Source: Thiotrichaceae bacterium (GTDB lineage Bacteria; Pseudomonadota; Gammaproteobacteria; Thiotrichales; Thiotrichaceae). Taken from it: a stretch of DNA of 39,611 nt. The stretch covers positions 1 through 39,611 of the forward strand of contig JALXAX010000177.1 of assembly GCA_026991755.1 (NCBI GenBank), in the 5' to 3' direction. This document shows positions 8,647 to 39,611 of the stretch, in pieces. The translations under genes were made by a program, and so were the position numbers. Each line of letters begins with the position of its first letter. Positions within the stretch are counted from its first letter, which is position 1. Under the pieces are notes generated by a model, which worked only from the letters and a program-made list of their open reading frames with translations, did no database searches and was not told the origin of the DNA.

Positions 8647-10536
8647 CTATTTTGGGGTATAGCTAAGCGTTAGCATATAGTTTCGCCCATCCTGTGGGAA
8701 GAAAGCGGTTGTTTCGTATTCTTTATCGAAAAGGTTACCTACTTTGGCTTGCAAACTAAGACCTTTAGTTAATTGATAACCAAGCCGAAAGTCAGCAGTA
8801 GTATAGCCGCTAACGTTTAAATTATTACCCGCATCATCAAATCGACTTCCTTCTGCTATTAGATCAGAGCCGATACTTAATCTTCCAAAGCTTTTATCCG
8901 TGCTTAATCGGAAGCTTTTATCAGGGCGACGAGCTAATTTCTTACCATTGTTACTACTACTTTTGTTTTTAGTATCTAGCAATGTCAAATCAGCAGCGAC
9001 ATCCCATCCTGCTATTTGAGTGTTTACAATAGCCTCAAAGCCTTTGATAGTTGCTTTATCAATATTGTTAGCAAGAAAGATACTACTATCATAAACAATC
9101 AGATCATCTGCTTCTGTACGGTAAAGGTTGCTAGACCAGCTCCCCCATGTGTGTTTTCCGCGTAGCCCTAGTTCTGCTGTTTTAGATGTTTCAGGGTTAA
9201 GATCTGGGCTACCAAAGAAAGGAAAATACAATTGATTAAAAGTAGGGGCTTTAAAAGCCGTGCCGTAAGATGCAGTTAATGCAAGGTGTTCATTGATAGG
9301 ATGCTTAACAGCAACATTTCCCGTTGTATGACGTCCAAACTGCTCATTATCATCGTTTCTTAATCCAACGATGATGTCATGGTTAGCAATATGTCCTTGA
9401 TACTCCACAAATAAGCCTTTGTTGTTTCGAGAAGGTACAATATATTCTGTTGTATCTACTGTATCCTTTAAATAATCAAAGCCTACGGTGAATAGATTTT
9501 CATCATTTACATCTATATTTGATTGTAGGGAATAGGTATTCCGTTTGGTATCGAACCGGCTAAAAAAGACACCACTTTGAAAGTTGTTGTTCTTGTGGTC
9601 ATTGTGACCTGCTGAAAAGATAACATCCACACTATCACTCAGTTCAGAAGTAATATTTAAGCCGTAAGTTTGAGACAACGTATCAGCTTCATTGGGTGCA
9701 AAGGGTGGTGCTCCATCAAATTCAGTTTTGTTATCAGTTCGTAAGAATTGTGCTGATATTTTTGTATGATCAGTTAATTGATAACCCGCACTGAAAGAAG
9801 CCGATCTATTATCGTATGAGTCATCATCAGGTTCTTCGGTAAAGCATCCTGCACCAGGGAATCCACCCGGTGTTACAACAAAGGTTGAACTGCCTGTACA
9901 AGCATTATAACCATCTGTTTTCTCGCGCTTAAGGTTTACGCTGTACCAGCCCTTATCAAATCCACCACTAATTCCTGCTGATATTCCCTTGGTATTATGA
10001 CTTCCAGTCTTGATGGATACCGTAGGTTTGGCAGCTTCACCTGCTTTACTTTTCTTGGTGAATATTTGAATGACACCGCCGATTGCATCAGAGCCATACA
10101 AACTTGTTCTAGGGCCACGTACAATTTCAATTCGTTCAACTAGTTCAAGTGGGATGATAGATAGCGGGGCAGCGCCATCGGTAGCCGTATTAATTTTAAT
10201 ACCATCAATAATAACTAGAACATGGTCAGAATTCGTTCCGCGTAAAAATAAAGAAGTTTTCTTGCCAGCTCCGCCGTTATTGACTAAATGAAAGCCAGCT
10301 CTTGCACGTAATAATTCTTGTAAGCTCGTTGCTTGTTGTTTTTTGATGTCATCTTGAGTCAACACCGTCACAGATGCTAGTGCATCATCAACGGTTTGCG
10401 CAGTACGCGTTGCTGTAACAATAACTTCTTCTAGTTCTGTGGTTGTGTCCTCAGCAAAGACAAAAGATGAGGTAAGTAATAAGGGTAAAATAGAAAAGGA
10501 TGCACCAGAGATTCTGGTACGTTTGAAAGTACTCAT
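8647..10536 (-). CDS. btuB: TonB-dependent cobalamin receptor BtuB
   Basis: This outer-membrane receptor takes up vitamin B12 using TonB-ExbBD energy. From the chosen start at 10536, residues 1-28 form a signal peptide ending FVFA, followed by the TonB box EEVIVTATR (36-44). The plug domain includes SLFLRGTNSDHVLVIIDG and RIEIVRGPRTSLYGSDAIGG, and the rest is a 22-strand-type barrel. An upstream in-frame ATG at 10587 would add 17 non-signal residues; the 10536 start has AGGAG 9 nt upstream and gives a normal signal peptide. The protein ends SYTPK rather than in the aromatic residue common for barrel termini. B12 specificity is supported by the riboswitch immediately upstream and by btuM downstream. 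Confidence 0.92.
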   Translation of the reverse strand: MSTFKRTRISGASFSILPLLLTSSFVFAEDTTTELEEVIVTATRTAQTVDDALASVTVLTQDDIKKQQATSLQELLRARAGFHLVNNGGAGKKTSLFLRGTNSDHVLVIIDGIKINTATDGAAPLSIIPLELVERIEIVRGPRTSLYGSDAIGGVIQIFTKKSKAGEAAKPTVSIKTGSHNTKGISAGISGGFDKGWYSVNLKREKTDGYNACTGSSTFVVTPGGFPGAGCFTEEPDDDSYDNRSASFSAGYQLTDHTKISAQFLRTDNKTEFDGAPPFAPNEADTLSQTYGLNITSELSDSVDVIFSAGHNDHKNNNFQSGVFFSRFDTKRNTYSLQSNIDVNDENLFTVGFDYLKDTVDTTEYIVPSRNNKGLFVEYQGHIANHDIIVGLRNDDNEQFGRHTTGNVAVKHPINEHLALTASYGTAFKAPTFNQLYFPFFGSPDLNPETSKTAELGLRGKHTWGSWSSNLYRTEADDLIVYDSSIFLANNIDKATIKGFEAIVNTQIAGWDVAADLTLLDTKNKSSSNNGKKLARRPDKSFRLSTDKSFGRLSIGSDLIAEGSRFDDAGNNLNVSGYTTADFRLGYQLTKGLSLQAKVGNLFDKEYETTAFFPQDGRNYMLTLSYTPK

Positions 10537-10639
10537 TGATATAACTCCTGAAACCACGCCCGCCGCGCAGTGTAATAAAGTATGCAAAAATTAATTGCAG
10601 TAAGAAATGTTGTTAGATGATTGACACTCAAGTAACAAC

Positions 10640-10850
10640 GTGAGCTTCAGGCCGGTATCCGGACTTGTGAGGTATCTTTACATCAACTGCACCTTCCCAT
10701 GTTCGTAAACACAGTGGTTTTTTGCAGTTTTAACTCACTTACCGTTGCGGGGGCAGTGCTGGAATTGCAATTCAGTGATGATTGATTGCGCACCAGCTTC
10801 CCGTTTAACGTGCACCACATTAGTAGTGGCTTATGCACCTGAAGCGCAGA
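10640..10850 (-). promoter_or_regulatory. Cobalamin riboswitch controlling btuB-btuM
   Basis: Read on the minus strand, the leader contains the conserved cobalamin-aptamer blocks in the right order: AACGGGAAGCTGGTG, then GCCCCCGCAACGGTAA, then CCACTG, then GGGAAGG, and finally the B12-box region AAGTCCGGATACCGGCC (about 10650-10667). It lies about 100 nt upstream of the btuB start codon. By the known logic of the family, adenosylcobalamin binding should repress btuB expression when B12 is plentiful. The exact outer limits are estimated. An open reading frame on the opposite strand here is not coding. Confidence 0.95.
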
Positions 10851-10852
10851 GG

Positions 10853-10881
10853 AAAGTACGTGATTCCCGACGTAGAGTCAA
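10853..10881 (-). promoter_or_regulatory. Candidate sigma-70 promoter of btuB
   Basis: On the minus strand TTGACT (10876-10881) is followed after 17 bp by TACTTT (10853-10858). The -35 box is strong and the -10 box weak. Transcription would begin near 10846, right at the 5' edge of the riboswitch, which supports the call. Confidence 0.45.
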
Positions 10882-10927
10882 TAGAGAATTTTTGTTGTGT
10901 ATTGCTGTAGAAGGCGGTGCGATTATT

Positions 10928-10991
10928 AAATAGCCAAATAGCCAAATAGCCAAATAGCCAAATAGCCAAATAGCCAAATAGCCAAATAGCC
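10928..10991. repeat. Eight exact copies of an 8-bp tandem repeat
   Basis: AAATAGCC is repeated eight times without error. The array stops one base short of the uup stop codon and lies about 45 bp upstream of the candidate btuB promoter. Perfect short repeats of this kind are prone to copy-number change by slippage. Confidence 0.97.
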
Positions 10992-10992
10992 A

Positions 10993-12909
10993 TCAGCTAT
11001 CATCTAACTCTTCCCATCGAGTATAGTGCTGAGCAAGCTCTGCTTCATATTTTGCTAACTTATCTTGAGTCGCGGTAATGGTGTTTTGCGTTTGCTTATA
11101 AAAATCAGCCAGTCCCATTTCTGCATGGAGTGCTTCGATAGTGGTTTCCAAATCTTCGATAGCTTGTGGTAGCTTCTCAAGTTCGAGTCGTTCCTTATAG
11201 GTTAGCTTCTTCTCTTGGGTTTGTTTTGCAGGTTGTTTATCTTTGGCCTTAGTCTTAGTAACTTCTTGGTTTGAGGAAGCTTTAGATGGATTAGATAAGG
11301 TAGGGGTTTTGCTATCTCTAGTGCTTCTTTGTTTCATCCAGTCGTCATAGCCACCGACGTATTCTTCCAGATGTCCGTTGCCTTCAAATGCGATGGTGCT
11401 GGTTACGATATGATTAACAAAGCTTCTATCGTGAGAAACTAGTAATAATGTCCCTGTGTAATCAAGCAATAGCTCTTCGAGTAATTCCAATGTTTCGATG
11501 TCGAGATCATTAGTCGGCTCGTCCATGACCAAAACATTAGTAGGGCGGGTGAATAGTTTGGCGAGTAGCAGCCTGTTTCTTTCGCCACCTGATAGTGTTT
11601 TGACGGGGGAGTGAATTCTATCGGGTGTAAACAAGAAGTCTTGCAAATAGCTAATGACGTGTTTAGTTTGACCGTTAATCTCAATATTATCACTGCCTTC
11701 AGCAAGGTTGTCACGTACGGTCTTCTCTAAATCGAGTTGGTCACGTAACTGATCAAAGTAGGCTAATTCGATGTTAGTACCTAGCTTGACCGATCCTGTT
11801 GAAGGTTCTAACTTACCTAATAATATTTTCAGTAGTGTGGTTTTTCCCACACCGTTAGGGCCAAGTAGCGCGACTTTATCACCCCGTTGAATGGTGGTTG
11901 AGAAGCTTTTAAGGATTTCGTTATCATCGTAGCTAAAGCTGATGTCTTTTGCTTCTACTACTAGCTTTCCAGACTTCTTATTAGTGTCCATGCTGATATT
12001 GACATTGCCTTGCTGATTGCGACGCTGCGCTCTTTCTCGACGCATTTTTTCTAAAGCGCGCACTCTGCCTTCATTACGGGTACGTCGTGCCTTAATGCCT
12101 TTGCGAATCCAGACTTCTTCTTGAGCTAGCTTTTTATCAAAGCGGGCGTTTTCAGCATCTTCCGCTTCTAGCATTTCTTCTTTGCGTGCCAAGAAGCTAT
12201 CGTAGTTGCCAGGAAAGCTAATCAACCTGCCACGATCAAGTTCTATAATGCGTGTCGCCATATTTCTAAGGAAGGTTCTATCATGGGTAATAAAAACGAT
12301 ACTGCCTTTAAAGCCTTTTAGAAAATCTTCAAGCCATTGGATAGAGGCAATATCCAAGTGGTTAGTTGGCTCATCGAGTAATAAAATATCGGGTTGTAGT
12401 AACAAGGCTTTTGCTAAAAGCACACGACGTTTAAGACCCCCTGACAGGGATGAAAATAATTCATCAGCAGGTAAGGAGAGTTTGGAGATAATAGTTTCAA
12501 CTTGCTGATTTAACTCCCAGCCGTTATTCACTTCAAGCTGTTGTTGGACTTTAGCGAGTTTGTCCATCCAGACTTCATCATGCGTTTCACTATGGCTGAG
12601 ATCGTGATATTCACTTAATAATTTACCCACTTCAGGCAAACCGCTGGCGACCACATTAAACACGCTATCGTCAATCCCTTCAGGCACCTCTTGTTCTAGC
12701 TTAGTGACGGTGATGCCGCCTTTTACAACACGCTCGCCCAAGTCGGTGGGTAGTTGTCCTTGAATGACTTTGAGTAGGGTAGATTTACCTGCTCCATTGC
12801 GACCGATTAAACACACCCGTTCGCGGGGTTCAATAATGAGATCAAGTTTGTCGAGTAAGGGTAAACCCCCGAAGCTGAGTTGAATATCTTGTAGTCGTAA
12901 AAGTGCCAT
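10993..12909 (-). CDS. uup: ABC-F ATPase Uup
   Basis: This is a soluble tandem ATP-binding protein of the ABC-F class, with no membrane domain, thought to act on ribosomes or branched DNA intermediates. The first nucleotide-binding domain has Walker A GRNGAGKST (36-44), signature LSGGLKRR (about 155) and LLLDEPTNHLD. Then comes the linker EVWIRKGIKARRTRNEGRVR typical of Uup. The second domain has GPNGVGKTT (350-358), LSGGERNRLL and VMDEPTNDLD. A charged coiled-coil tail (about 545-638) is the Uup DNA-binding C-terminal domain. The start at 12909 (MALLRLQDIQ) aligns with E. coli Uup. A longer reading from 12972 would run into a mobile element and is rejected, although 12909 has only a poor ribosome site. 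Confidence 0.93.
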   Translation of the reverse strand: MALLRLQDIQLSFGGLPLLDKLDLIIEPRERVCLIGRNGAGKSTLLKVIQGQLPTDLGERVVKGGITVTKLEQEVPEGIDDSVFNVVASGLPEVGKLLSEYHDLSHSETHDEVWMDKLAKVQQQLEVNNGWELNQQVETIISKLSLPADELFSSLSGGLKRRVLLAKALLLQPDILLLDEPTNHLDIASIQWLEDFLKGFKGSIVFITHDRTFLRNMATRIIELDRGRLISFPGNYDSFLARKEEMLEAEDAENARFDKKLAQEEVWIRKGIKARRTRNEGRVRALEKMRRERAQRRNQQGNVNISMDTNKKSGKLVVEAKDISFSYDDNEILKSFSTTIQRGDKVALLGPNGVGKTTLLKILLGKLEPSTGSVKLGTNIELAYFDQLRDQLDLEKTVRDNLAEGSDNIEINGQTKHVISYLQDFLFTPDRIHSPVKTLSGGERNRLLLAKLFTRPTNVLVMDEPTNDLDIETLELLEELLLDYTGTLLLVSHDRSFVNHIVTSTIAFEGNGHLEEYVGGYDDWMKQRSTRDSKTPTLSNPSKASSNQEVTKTKAKDKQPAKQTQEKKLTYKERLELEKLPQAIEDLETTIEALHAEMGLADFYKQTQNTITATQDKLAKYEAELAQHYTRWEELDDS

Positions 12910-12968
12910 TAGATTGAACGCTGTTATAAAGTTGGGCGGATTATATAGCGCTAACAGATGGGATGATA

Positions 12969-13079
12969 TCAATAGTTGTAAAAGTATATTTAGTAAAACT
13001 GCGCCCTTTGATTCTGCTCAGGGTGCTACTCTGTAGCCTGAGCGGAGTCGAAGGTGTAGAACTTTTGCAACAATTAATA
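12969..13079 (-). mobile_element. MITE family F1, copy 1 (degenerate, inverted)
   Basis: Read on the minus strand, this begins TATTAATTGTTGCAAAAGT and ends near a partial match to the other terminus. It contains the family core arms CCTTCGACTCCGCTCAGG and CCCTGAGC, separated by CTACAGAGTAGCA. It is about 111 bp, shorter and more mutated than the three copies at 27674, 28025 and 38791. It lies between uup and the sigma-factor gene. The core hairpin could also act as a transcription barrier. Confidence 0.85.
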
Positions 13080-27673: not shown

Positions 27674-27798
27674 TATTAATCGTTGCATAAGTTTTTACAT
27701 ACAAGCACCGCCTTCGACTCCGCTCAGGCTACAGAGTAGCACCCTGAGCGCAGTCGAAGGGCGCGGTTTTACTGAATATACTTTTGCAACTATTAATA
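27674..27798 (+). mobile_element. MITE family F1, copy 2
   Basis: A 125-bp element. The left end TATTAATCGTTGCATAAGT and the inverted right end TATTAATAGTTGCAAAAGT match at 17 of 19. A central hairpin has arms CCTTCGACTCCGCTCAGG and CCTGAGCGCAGTCGAAGG around CTACAGAGTAGCAC. A terminal TA on both sides would suit a TA target duplication (IS630/mariner-like). That is inference. Confidence 0.9.
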
Positions 27799-28024: not shown

Positions 28025-28150
28025 TATTAATCGTTGCATAAGTCTTTACATACAAGCACCGCCTTCGACTCCGCTCAGGCTCCAGAGTAGCACCCTGAGC
28101 GGAGTCGAAGGGTGCGGTTTTTACTGAACATACTTTTGCAACTATTAATA
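28025..28150 (+). mobile_element. MITE family F1, copy 3
   Basis: 126 bp, the same orientation and termini as copy 2, which lies 226 bp to its left. The central arms CCTTCGACTCCGCTCAGG and CCTGAGCGGAGTCGAAGG are perfectly complementary. Confidence 0.9.
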
Positions 28151-38531: not shown

Positions 38532-38554
38532 AGACGTTTTCATCCGTTCAAAAG

Positions 38555-38665
38555 TCTGGGCTTGTTAAGACCGTTATGCCTAAATGGCATAACGCAGCTT
38601 AGCAAGCGCGAGCACAGGGAAGTGCGAGCAGGAAGAACAAGCCAGGGAAGGCGCTCCATAGCTAC
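38555..38665. repeat. 111-nt hairpin insert X in a CRISPR repeat, copy 1
   Basis: It follows the first 19 bases of a repeat and precedes a repeat that is intact from its third base. It begins TCTGGGCTTGTTAAGACC and contains a strong hairpin: GCTTGTTAAG-AC-CGTTATGCC, loop TAAAT, then GGCATAACG-CAG-CTTAGCAAGC. A second inverted pair is CTTGTT with AACAAG near the right part. No reading frame of note. It differs from copy 2 at one visible base (GAGCAGG versus GAGCTGG). Confidence 0.85.
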
Positions 38666-38790
38666 TTTCATCCCGTTCAAAAGTCCAGTCAGTTCGCACC
38701 AAGGCAACATTCGATATTGGCGATATTAAAAATAAGTTTTCATCCCGTTCAAAATCCGGTCAGTTCGCACCCCGAAAAACTAATCAAATC

Positions 38791-38915
38791 TATTAATCGT
38801 TGCATAAGTCTTTACATACAAGCACCGCCTTCGACTCGGCTCAGGCTACAGAGTAGCACCCTGAGCGGAGTCGAAGGGCGCGGTTTTACTGAATATACTT
38901 TTGCAACTATTAATA
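38791..38915 (+). mobile_element. MITE family F1, copy 4, inside a CRISPR spacer
   Basis: 125 bp, nearly identical to copies 2 and 3 (termini TATTAATCGTTGCATAAGT and ACTTTTGCAACTATTAATA). It splits a spacer into 19 nt (38772-38790) and 16 nt (38916-38931). Without the element the spacer would be 35 nt, or 37 nt if one TA belongs to the target, exactly in the range of the other spacers. Confidence 0.93.
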
Positions 38916-38951
38916 TCCCCGTGCTTGAATTGTTTTCATCCCGTTCAAAAG

Positions 38952-39062
38952 TCTGGGCTTGTTAAGACCGTTATGCCTAAATGGCATAACGCAGCTTAGC
39001 AAGCGCGAGCACAGGGAAGTGCGAGCTGGAAGAACAAGCCAGGGAAGGCGCTCCATAGCTAC
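38952..39062. repeat. 111-nt hairpin insert X in a CRISPR repeat, copy 2
   Basis: The same length and sequence as copy 1 apart from one base. It follows the first 20 bases of a repeat (38932-38951) and precedes a 38-bp variant repeat at 39061. It sits 397 bp to the right of copy 1. Confidence 0.85.
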
Positions 39063-39611
39063 TTTCATCCCGTTCAAAAAGGCCGGTCAGTTCGCACCTA
39101 TCAACGTTGCGGATAATTGGTAAACTGGTAAAGGCGTTTTCATCCCGTTCAAAAGTCCGGTCAGTTCGCACCGCTGAGGATTAAAAAGAGTCGTGCATTT
39201 TTATGCACTGTTTTCATCCCGTTCAAAAGTCCGGTCAGTTCGCACCTAAAAGTAAGACAGTAGGTGTTACTGGGGTTCATATGTTTTCATCCCGTTCAAA
39301 AGTCCGGTCAGTTCGCACCAACAGCTTCTCTGTGCATATATCATCATATACTTTGTTTTCATCCCGTTCAAAAGTCCGGTCAGTTCGCACCTGCGAAACT
39401 TGCAAAAGACTACACAATAAGCGAGTTTTCATCCCGTTCAAAAGTCCGGTCAGTTCGCACCACAATACTACTGAGACAAGAATGCCTGATCTACGTTTGT
39501 TTTCATCCCGTTCAAAAGTCCGGTCAGTTCGCACCGAAGGCGCAGCGAGGATTCGCTTTGGTGGAATCAGTTTTCATCCCGTTCAAAAGTCCGGTCAGTT
39601 CGCACCGTGAC

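Follow-up and report, generated by a model that had tools for sequence, protein, structure and literature searches.

We find a MITE of 125 bp, which we call F1, inside a CRISPR spacer of a Thiotrichaceae bacterium. A TA-targeting transposase acting in trans almost certainly mobilised F1, which inserted recently into an older 37-nt spacer and has most likely stayed there passively. The window, by which we mean the whole stretch of DNA analysed (39,611 nt), is an entire contig (C177) of a 3.66-Mb draft genome in 207 contigs. We propose that F1 is a non-autonomous transposon, mobilised most likely by an IS630/Tc1-type transposase. A recently moving copy would have entered a TA within the older spacer and doubled it, leaving 19 nt of spacer, the element and 16 nt of spacer. 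The spacer would thereby be lost as a guide: read from the minus strand, the guide would pass from old spacer into the F1 terminal repeat after 16 nt. At an old, decaying array end such a loss would be cheap, so the insertion most likely persisted passively.

Between the end of one repeat at 38771 (...TTCGCACC) and the start of the next at 38932 (GTTTTCATCCC), the window reads 160 nt, and these resolve exactly into a 19-nt piece, the complete F1 and a 16-nt piece (Table 1). An earlier sequence-only reading of this DNA had proposed the same decomposition, and direct reading bears it out. That reading had also set the unit between two repeats. On the left this holds, save that the repeat lacks one base; the right-hand flank has just half a repeat, which runs into a further conserved element, E2. 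The eight intact spacers of the array measure 35, 37, 37, 36, 35, 33, 37 and 34 nt.

Table 1. Features of the window around the interrupted spacer, and further F1 copies.
Feature	Position	Strand	Description
Diverged F1 relative	12967..13079	-	81.6% identical
F1 copy	27674..27798	+	97.6% identical to the spacer copy
F1 copy	28025..28150	+	96.0% identical to the spacer copy
E2, first copy	38557..38663		Trailer end of array
Intact spacer	38701..38735	-	35 nt; leader-distal neighbour of the F1 unit
CRISPR repeat	38736..38771	-	Left of the F1 unit; 36 nt, one base lost
Left spacer piece CCGAAAAACTAATCAAATC	38772..38790		19 nt; between repeat end 38771 and F1
F1 element (MITE)	38791..38915	+	125 bp, with internal palindrome; at least 40 places in the genome, same ends
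Right spacer piece TCCCCGTGCTTGAATT	38916..38931		16 nt; between F1 and repeat start 38932
Half repeat	38932..38953	-	Right of the F1 unit; joined to E2
E2, second copy	38954..39061		Inside array
Seven perfect repeats	39136..39606	-	37 nt each, separated by six spacers (33-37 nt); array continues past the contig end

F1 is a repeated element of its own genome. It occupies at least 40 places there (the 40 candidates scored out of 89, so that the count is a minimum) and is no chance sequence. Aligned copies end alike (TATTAAT...ATTAATA), and their flanks are unrelated. The terminal inverted repeats, TATTAATCGTTGCATAAGT and TATTAATAGTTGCAAAAGT, are identical at 17 of 19 positions and are retained in nearly all copies. 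F1 carries no transposase gene, 125 bp being too short to encode one. No whole F1 was found in the related genomes searched, which gave partial matches only, mostly to the internal palindrome or to the ends; this palindrome also occurs apart from F1 in related genomes. Because the matches in relatives are only partial, the F1 family appears to be largely particular to the source lineage.

The target of F1 can be read from two protein-coding genes that it has split. On contig C172 (5431-5555), F1 interrupts thrB (homoserine kinase), with positions 1-41 and 43-135 of model NF003558 on its two sides. On contig C136 (4144-4269), it interrupts a CitMHS-type transporter gene, flanked by positions 194-257 and 259-320 of PF03600. 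In the model alignments of both genes, the sole missing residue is the codon made up of one flanking base and TA. Because just one codon is missing at both genes, the ancestral site held exactly one TA, which F1 duplicated. The copy in thrB also brings a stop into the reading frame of the gene. With these features, F1 reads as a TA-inserting MITE of the IS630/Tc1 type.

The thrB and CitMHS loci, together with the uniform ends of the family, point to a TA duplication at the spacer as well. With this duplication applied, the restored spacer would be 19 + TA + 16 = 37 nt, within the 33- to 37-nt range of the intact spacers. A restored length of 35-37 nt had been suggested earlier; it can now be narrowed to 37 nt as the most likely value, given the TA duplication at the two other loci. 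That F1 moved after the spacer had been acquired, also part of the sequence-only reading, is upheld by the uniform ends, the TA duplication, the restored length and the half-spacers that abut the repeat ends.

A DDE_3 search returned no complete IS630 element in the source genome, and no autonomous element bearing F1 ends was found. Several candidate partners were rejected. A DDE_3/IS630 remnant adjoins one F1 copy on contig C1; it continues on one side only and gave no target duplication. On contig C86 (G000, 10767-11676), F1 ends that bound 910 bp proved to belong to a single F1 copy, split inside its palindrome by ~780 bp that resemble an IS110-family remnant. Sites with TATTAATGGTTTCAAAAGT belong instead to a second MITE-like family of ~117 bp, which has TATTAATGGTTTCAAAAGT as its ends and at least seven copies (L089-L097; for example, L093 1616-1731). 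In one relative (G021), F1-like ends lie mostly near contig ends, and no element was completed from them.

The interrupted unit lies in the worn part of its array. Repeats on the left side are degenerate, and perfect ones run rightward from 39136. Two related genomes share similar DNA on the right-hand side of their last repeat (alignment score 58; best of 200 shuffles, 39), as would be expected of a leader. We provisionally place the leader on the right because of this shared stretch, because the ...GATGAAAAC end of the repeat lies on the minus strand, and because the degenerate repeats lie on the left. With this orientation, and in a window that ends within the array, the F1 unit probably occupies the leader-distal, decaying end, next to the last spacer.

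In E2, the half repeat GTTTTCATCCCGTTCAAAAGTC leads into ~105 nt that contain a conserved hairpin (GTTATGCC...GGCATAAC); with the half repeats counted, its two copies in the window span 38538-38663 and 38932-39061. Three related copies occur in another genome of the genus (G005; L064 on C125, L078 on C132 and L069 on C12), one of which adjoins a lone repeat. At L078 (2520-2720), an array has apparently shrunk to one repeat, flanked by a conserved leader and E2 and devoid of spacers. E2 may be a conserved trailer element that accompanies such arrays; alternatively, it may be an insert that duplicated 20 bp of the repeat. A search of plasmids did not find it, and neither did a search of viral contigs with a single 23-base pattern.

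The source genome encodes Cas1 on three contigs other than C177 and Cas10 on a fourth, where the arrays nearby carry different repeats. Several CRISPR loci with repeats unlike that of C177 (G000 C150, C162, C65 and C72; L074, L075, L076 and L080), read as types I-C, V-A, II (Cas9) and III; the searches there covered Cas1 and Cas10. That number of CRISPR loci is unusual for one genome. Related genomes with a repeat similar to that of C177 are Thiotrichaceae MAGs. Among 95 genomes (the source and its relatives), the array repeat was found with up to three mismatches in one other genome, as a lone repeat with three mismatches, and an exact repeat search in named genomes returned nothing. Elsewhere in the window (10633-10857, minus strand), a cobalamin riboswitch lies just upstream of a TonB-dependent receptor-like gene (8647-10587).

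The age of the insertion can be judged from the closest relative of the spacer copy. Among the 40 copies scored out of 89 candidates, this is a copy on contig C49 (942-1066) that is 100% identical. A C-to-G change at column 48 is confined to these two among 31 aligned copies; in addition, a T is missing from a T run in both of them and in a few other copies. Because the identical C49 copy shares with the spacer copy a base change that is absent from all other aligned copies, the insertion into the spacer is recent, and F1 has moved recently. Recent activity had previously been argued from the copies at 27674 and 28025 (Table 1). The activity itself stands by way of the C49 copy, and the two copies first cited are not the closest. 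The remaining F1 copies include further clusters of identical sequences.

If the array is transcribed from the minus strand, the 16-nt right piece would form the 5' part of the guide. A mature crRNA of ordinary length would then probably comprise 16 nt of spacer and ~20 nt of F1 terminal repeat, rather than the hairpin, as the hairpin core of F1 would lie beyond ordinary guide length. As such a guide would begin with 16 nt that do not come from F1, it should not aim at the many chromosomal F1 copies. In folding predictions, the minus-strand transcript of the unit folds across F1 into a long and highly stable hairpin (-76.2 kcal/mol, against a mean of -56.6 for shuffled sequences; z, -4.5). The earlier suggestion that the crRNA carries the F1 hairpin thus suits the precursor RNA, as a predicted fold, and probably does not suit the trimmed crRNA, which would hold only the terminal repeat of F1 beside its 16 nt of spacer.

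This hairpin bears on whether the insertion was selected, either because it removed a self-targeting spacer or because the hairpin alters pre-crRNA processing or stops transcription toward the array end. Its stability speaks for selection, as does the precedent of Haloquadratum, where the spacer, once restored, proved to match cas genes of a different strain (PMC3119063). We nevertheless regard selection as very unlikely. Neither the empty 37-nt allele nor the restored spacer has a match in the source genome with up to three mismatches. The unit lies at what is probably the leader-distal end, between a repeat with a deletion and a half repeat. Furthermore, the high-copy F1 also strikes protein genes, so chance insertion suffices. 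The chances are just as slim that the cell has come to use the F1 hairpin, either as a structured signal for stopping or processing the transcript at the old array end or through its silencing of a harmful spacer; if it had, a MITE insertion would be editing CRISPR memory adaptively. Passive persistence of a nearly neutral insertion, the reading we prefer, would call for no such role.

Searches for a protospacer of the restored spacer gave none in phage records and none in IMG/VR, the latter queried with two exact 20-mers (with and without the TA). The neighbouring spacers gave one weak match to phage records (E = 0.1), which we judged to be chance. The lack of a match is usual for spacers.

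It is more doubtful still that the whole 160-nt unit was captured by Cas1-Cas2 as an oversized plasmid or phage fragment that already carried F1. Mobile DNA can supply spacers, and F1 is mobile. However, all eight intact spacers are 33-37 nt, which makes 160 nt a single extreme outlier, and its length would have to equal, by coincidence, that of a normal spacer plus a complete element plus TA. F1 was also not found in the plasmid collection. Equally hard to credit is an artefact of assembly or recombination that joined two spacers via F1 copies and lost the intervening repeat: F1 is repeated, and several contigs of this draft end inside F1 copies, but each F1 edge abuts a part-spacer, so that a false join would still need F1 in spacers of this array, the pieces plus TA come to a length within the normal range, and no second array with the C177 repeat was found in the genome. 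We therefore retain insertion into an existing spacer.

Our findings leave the current view of CRISPR and of MITEs as it is. They do provide a clean case in which a mobile element erases one unit of immune memory and leaves the repeats untouched. The identical sister copy puts the events in order, with the spacer acquired first and F1 moving later. The case also shows that a very long "spacer" listed in an array annotation may in fact be a MITE insertion.

The Correia elements of Neisseria are one example of IS630/Tc1-type MITEs that target TA. F1 is like them in its features, being short and non-coding with terminal inverted repeats, a TA duplication and a high copy number. It differs in having its own terminal repeats and internal palindrome.

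Insertions into CRISPR loci have also been described. Of 59 curated arrays interrupted by transposons, one, from Microcystis, has a MITE of 180 bp inserted in a repeat (PMC4852346), and cas genes likewise receive IS and MITE insertions (PMC10359306). As in those array cases, a transposable element splits the array, with target duplication; whereas the cases described in the text of PMC4852346 hit repeats, F1 hits a spacer and interrupts no repeat. The nearest counterpart is the MITE HqIRS37, which lies within a CRISPR spacer of Haloquadratum walsbyi HBSQ001 and whose ancestral spacer was restored in silico (PMC3119063). In both cases the MITE sits inside a spacer, and its removal restores the ancestral spacer. 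The HqIRS37 case, however, concerns an archaeon, a strain without cas genes, a different MITE, and a restored spacer for which a target was seen, among the cas genes of a different strain (PMC3119063). In the Thiotrichaceae case the host is a bacterium in which several Cas1 genes and Cas10 are still present, and no target was found for the spacer. A MITE in a spacer is thus already known from another microbe, and F1 is a well-supported further example of what is an ordinary accident.
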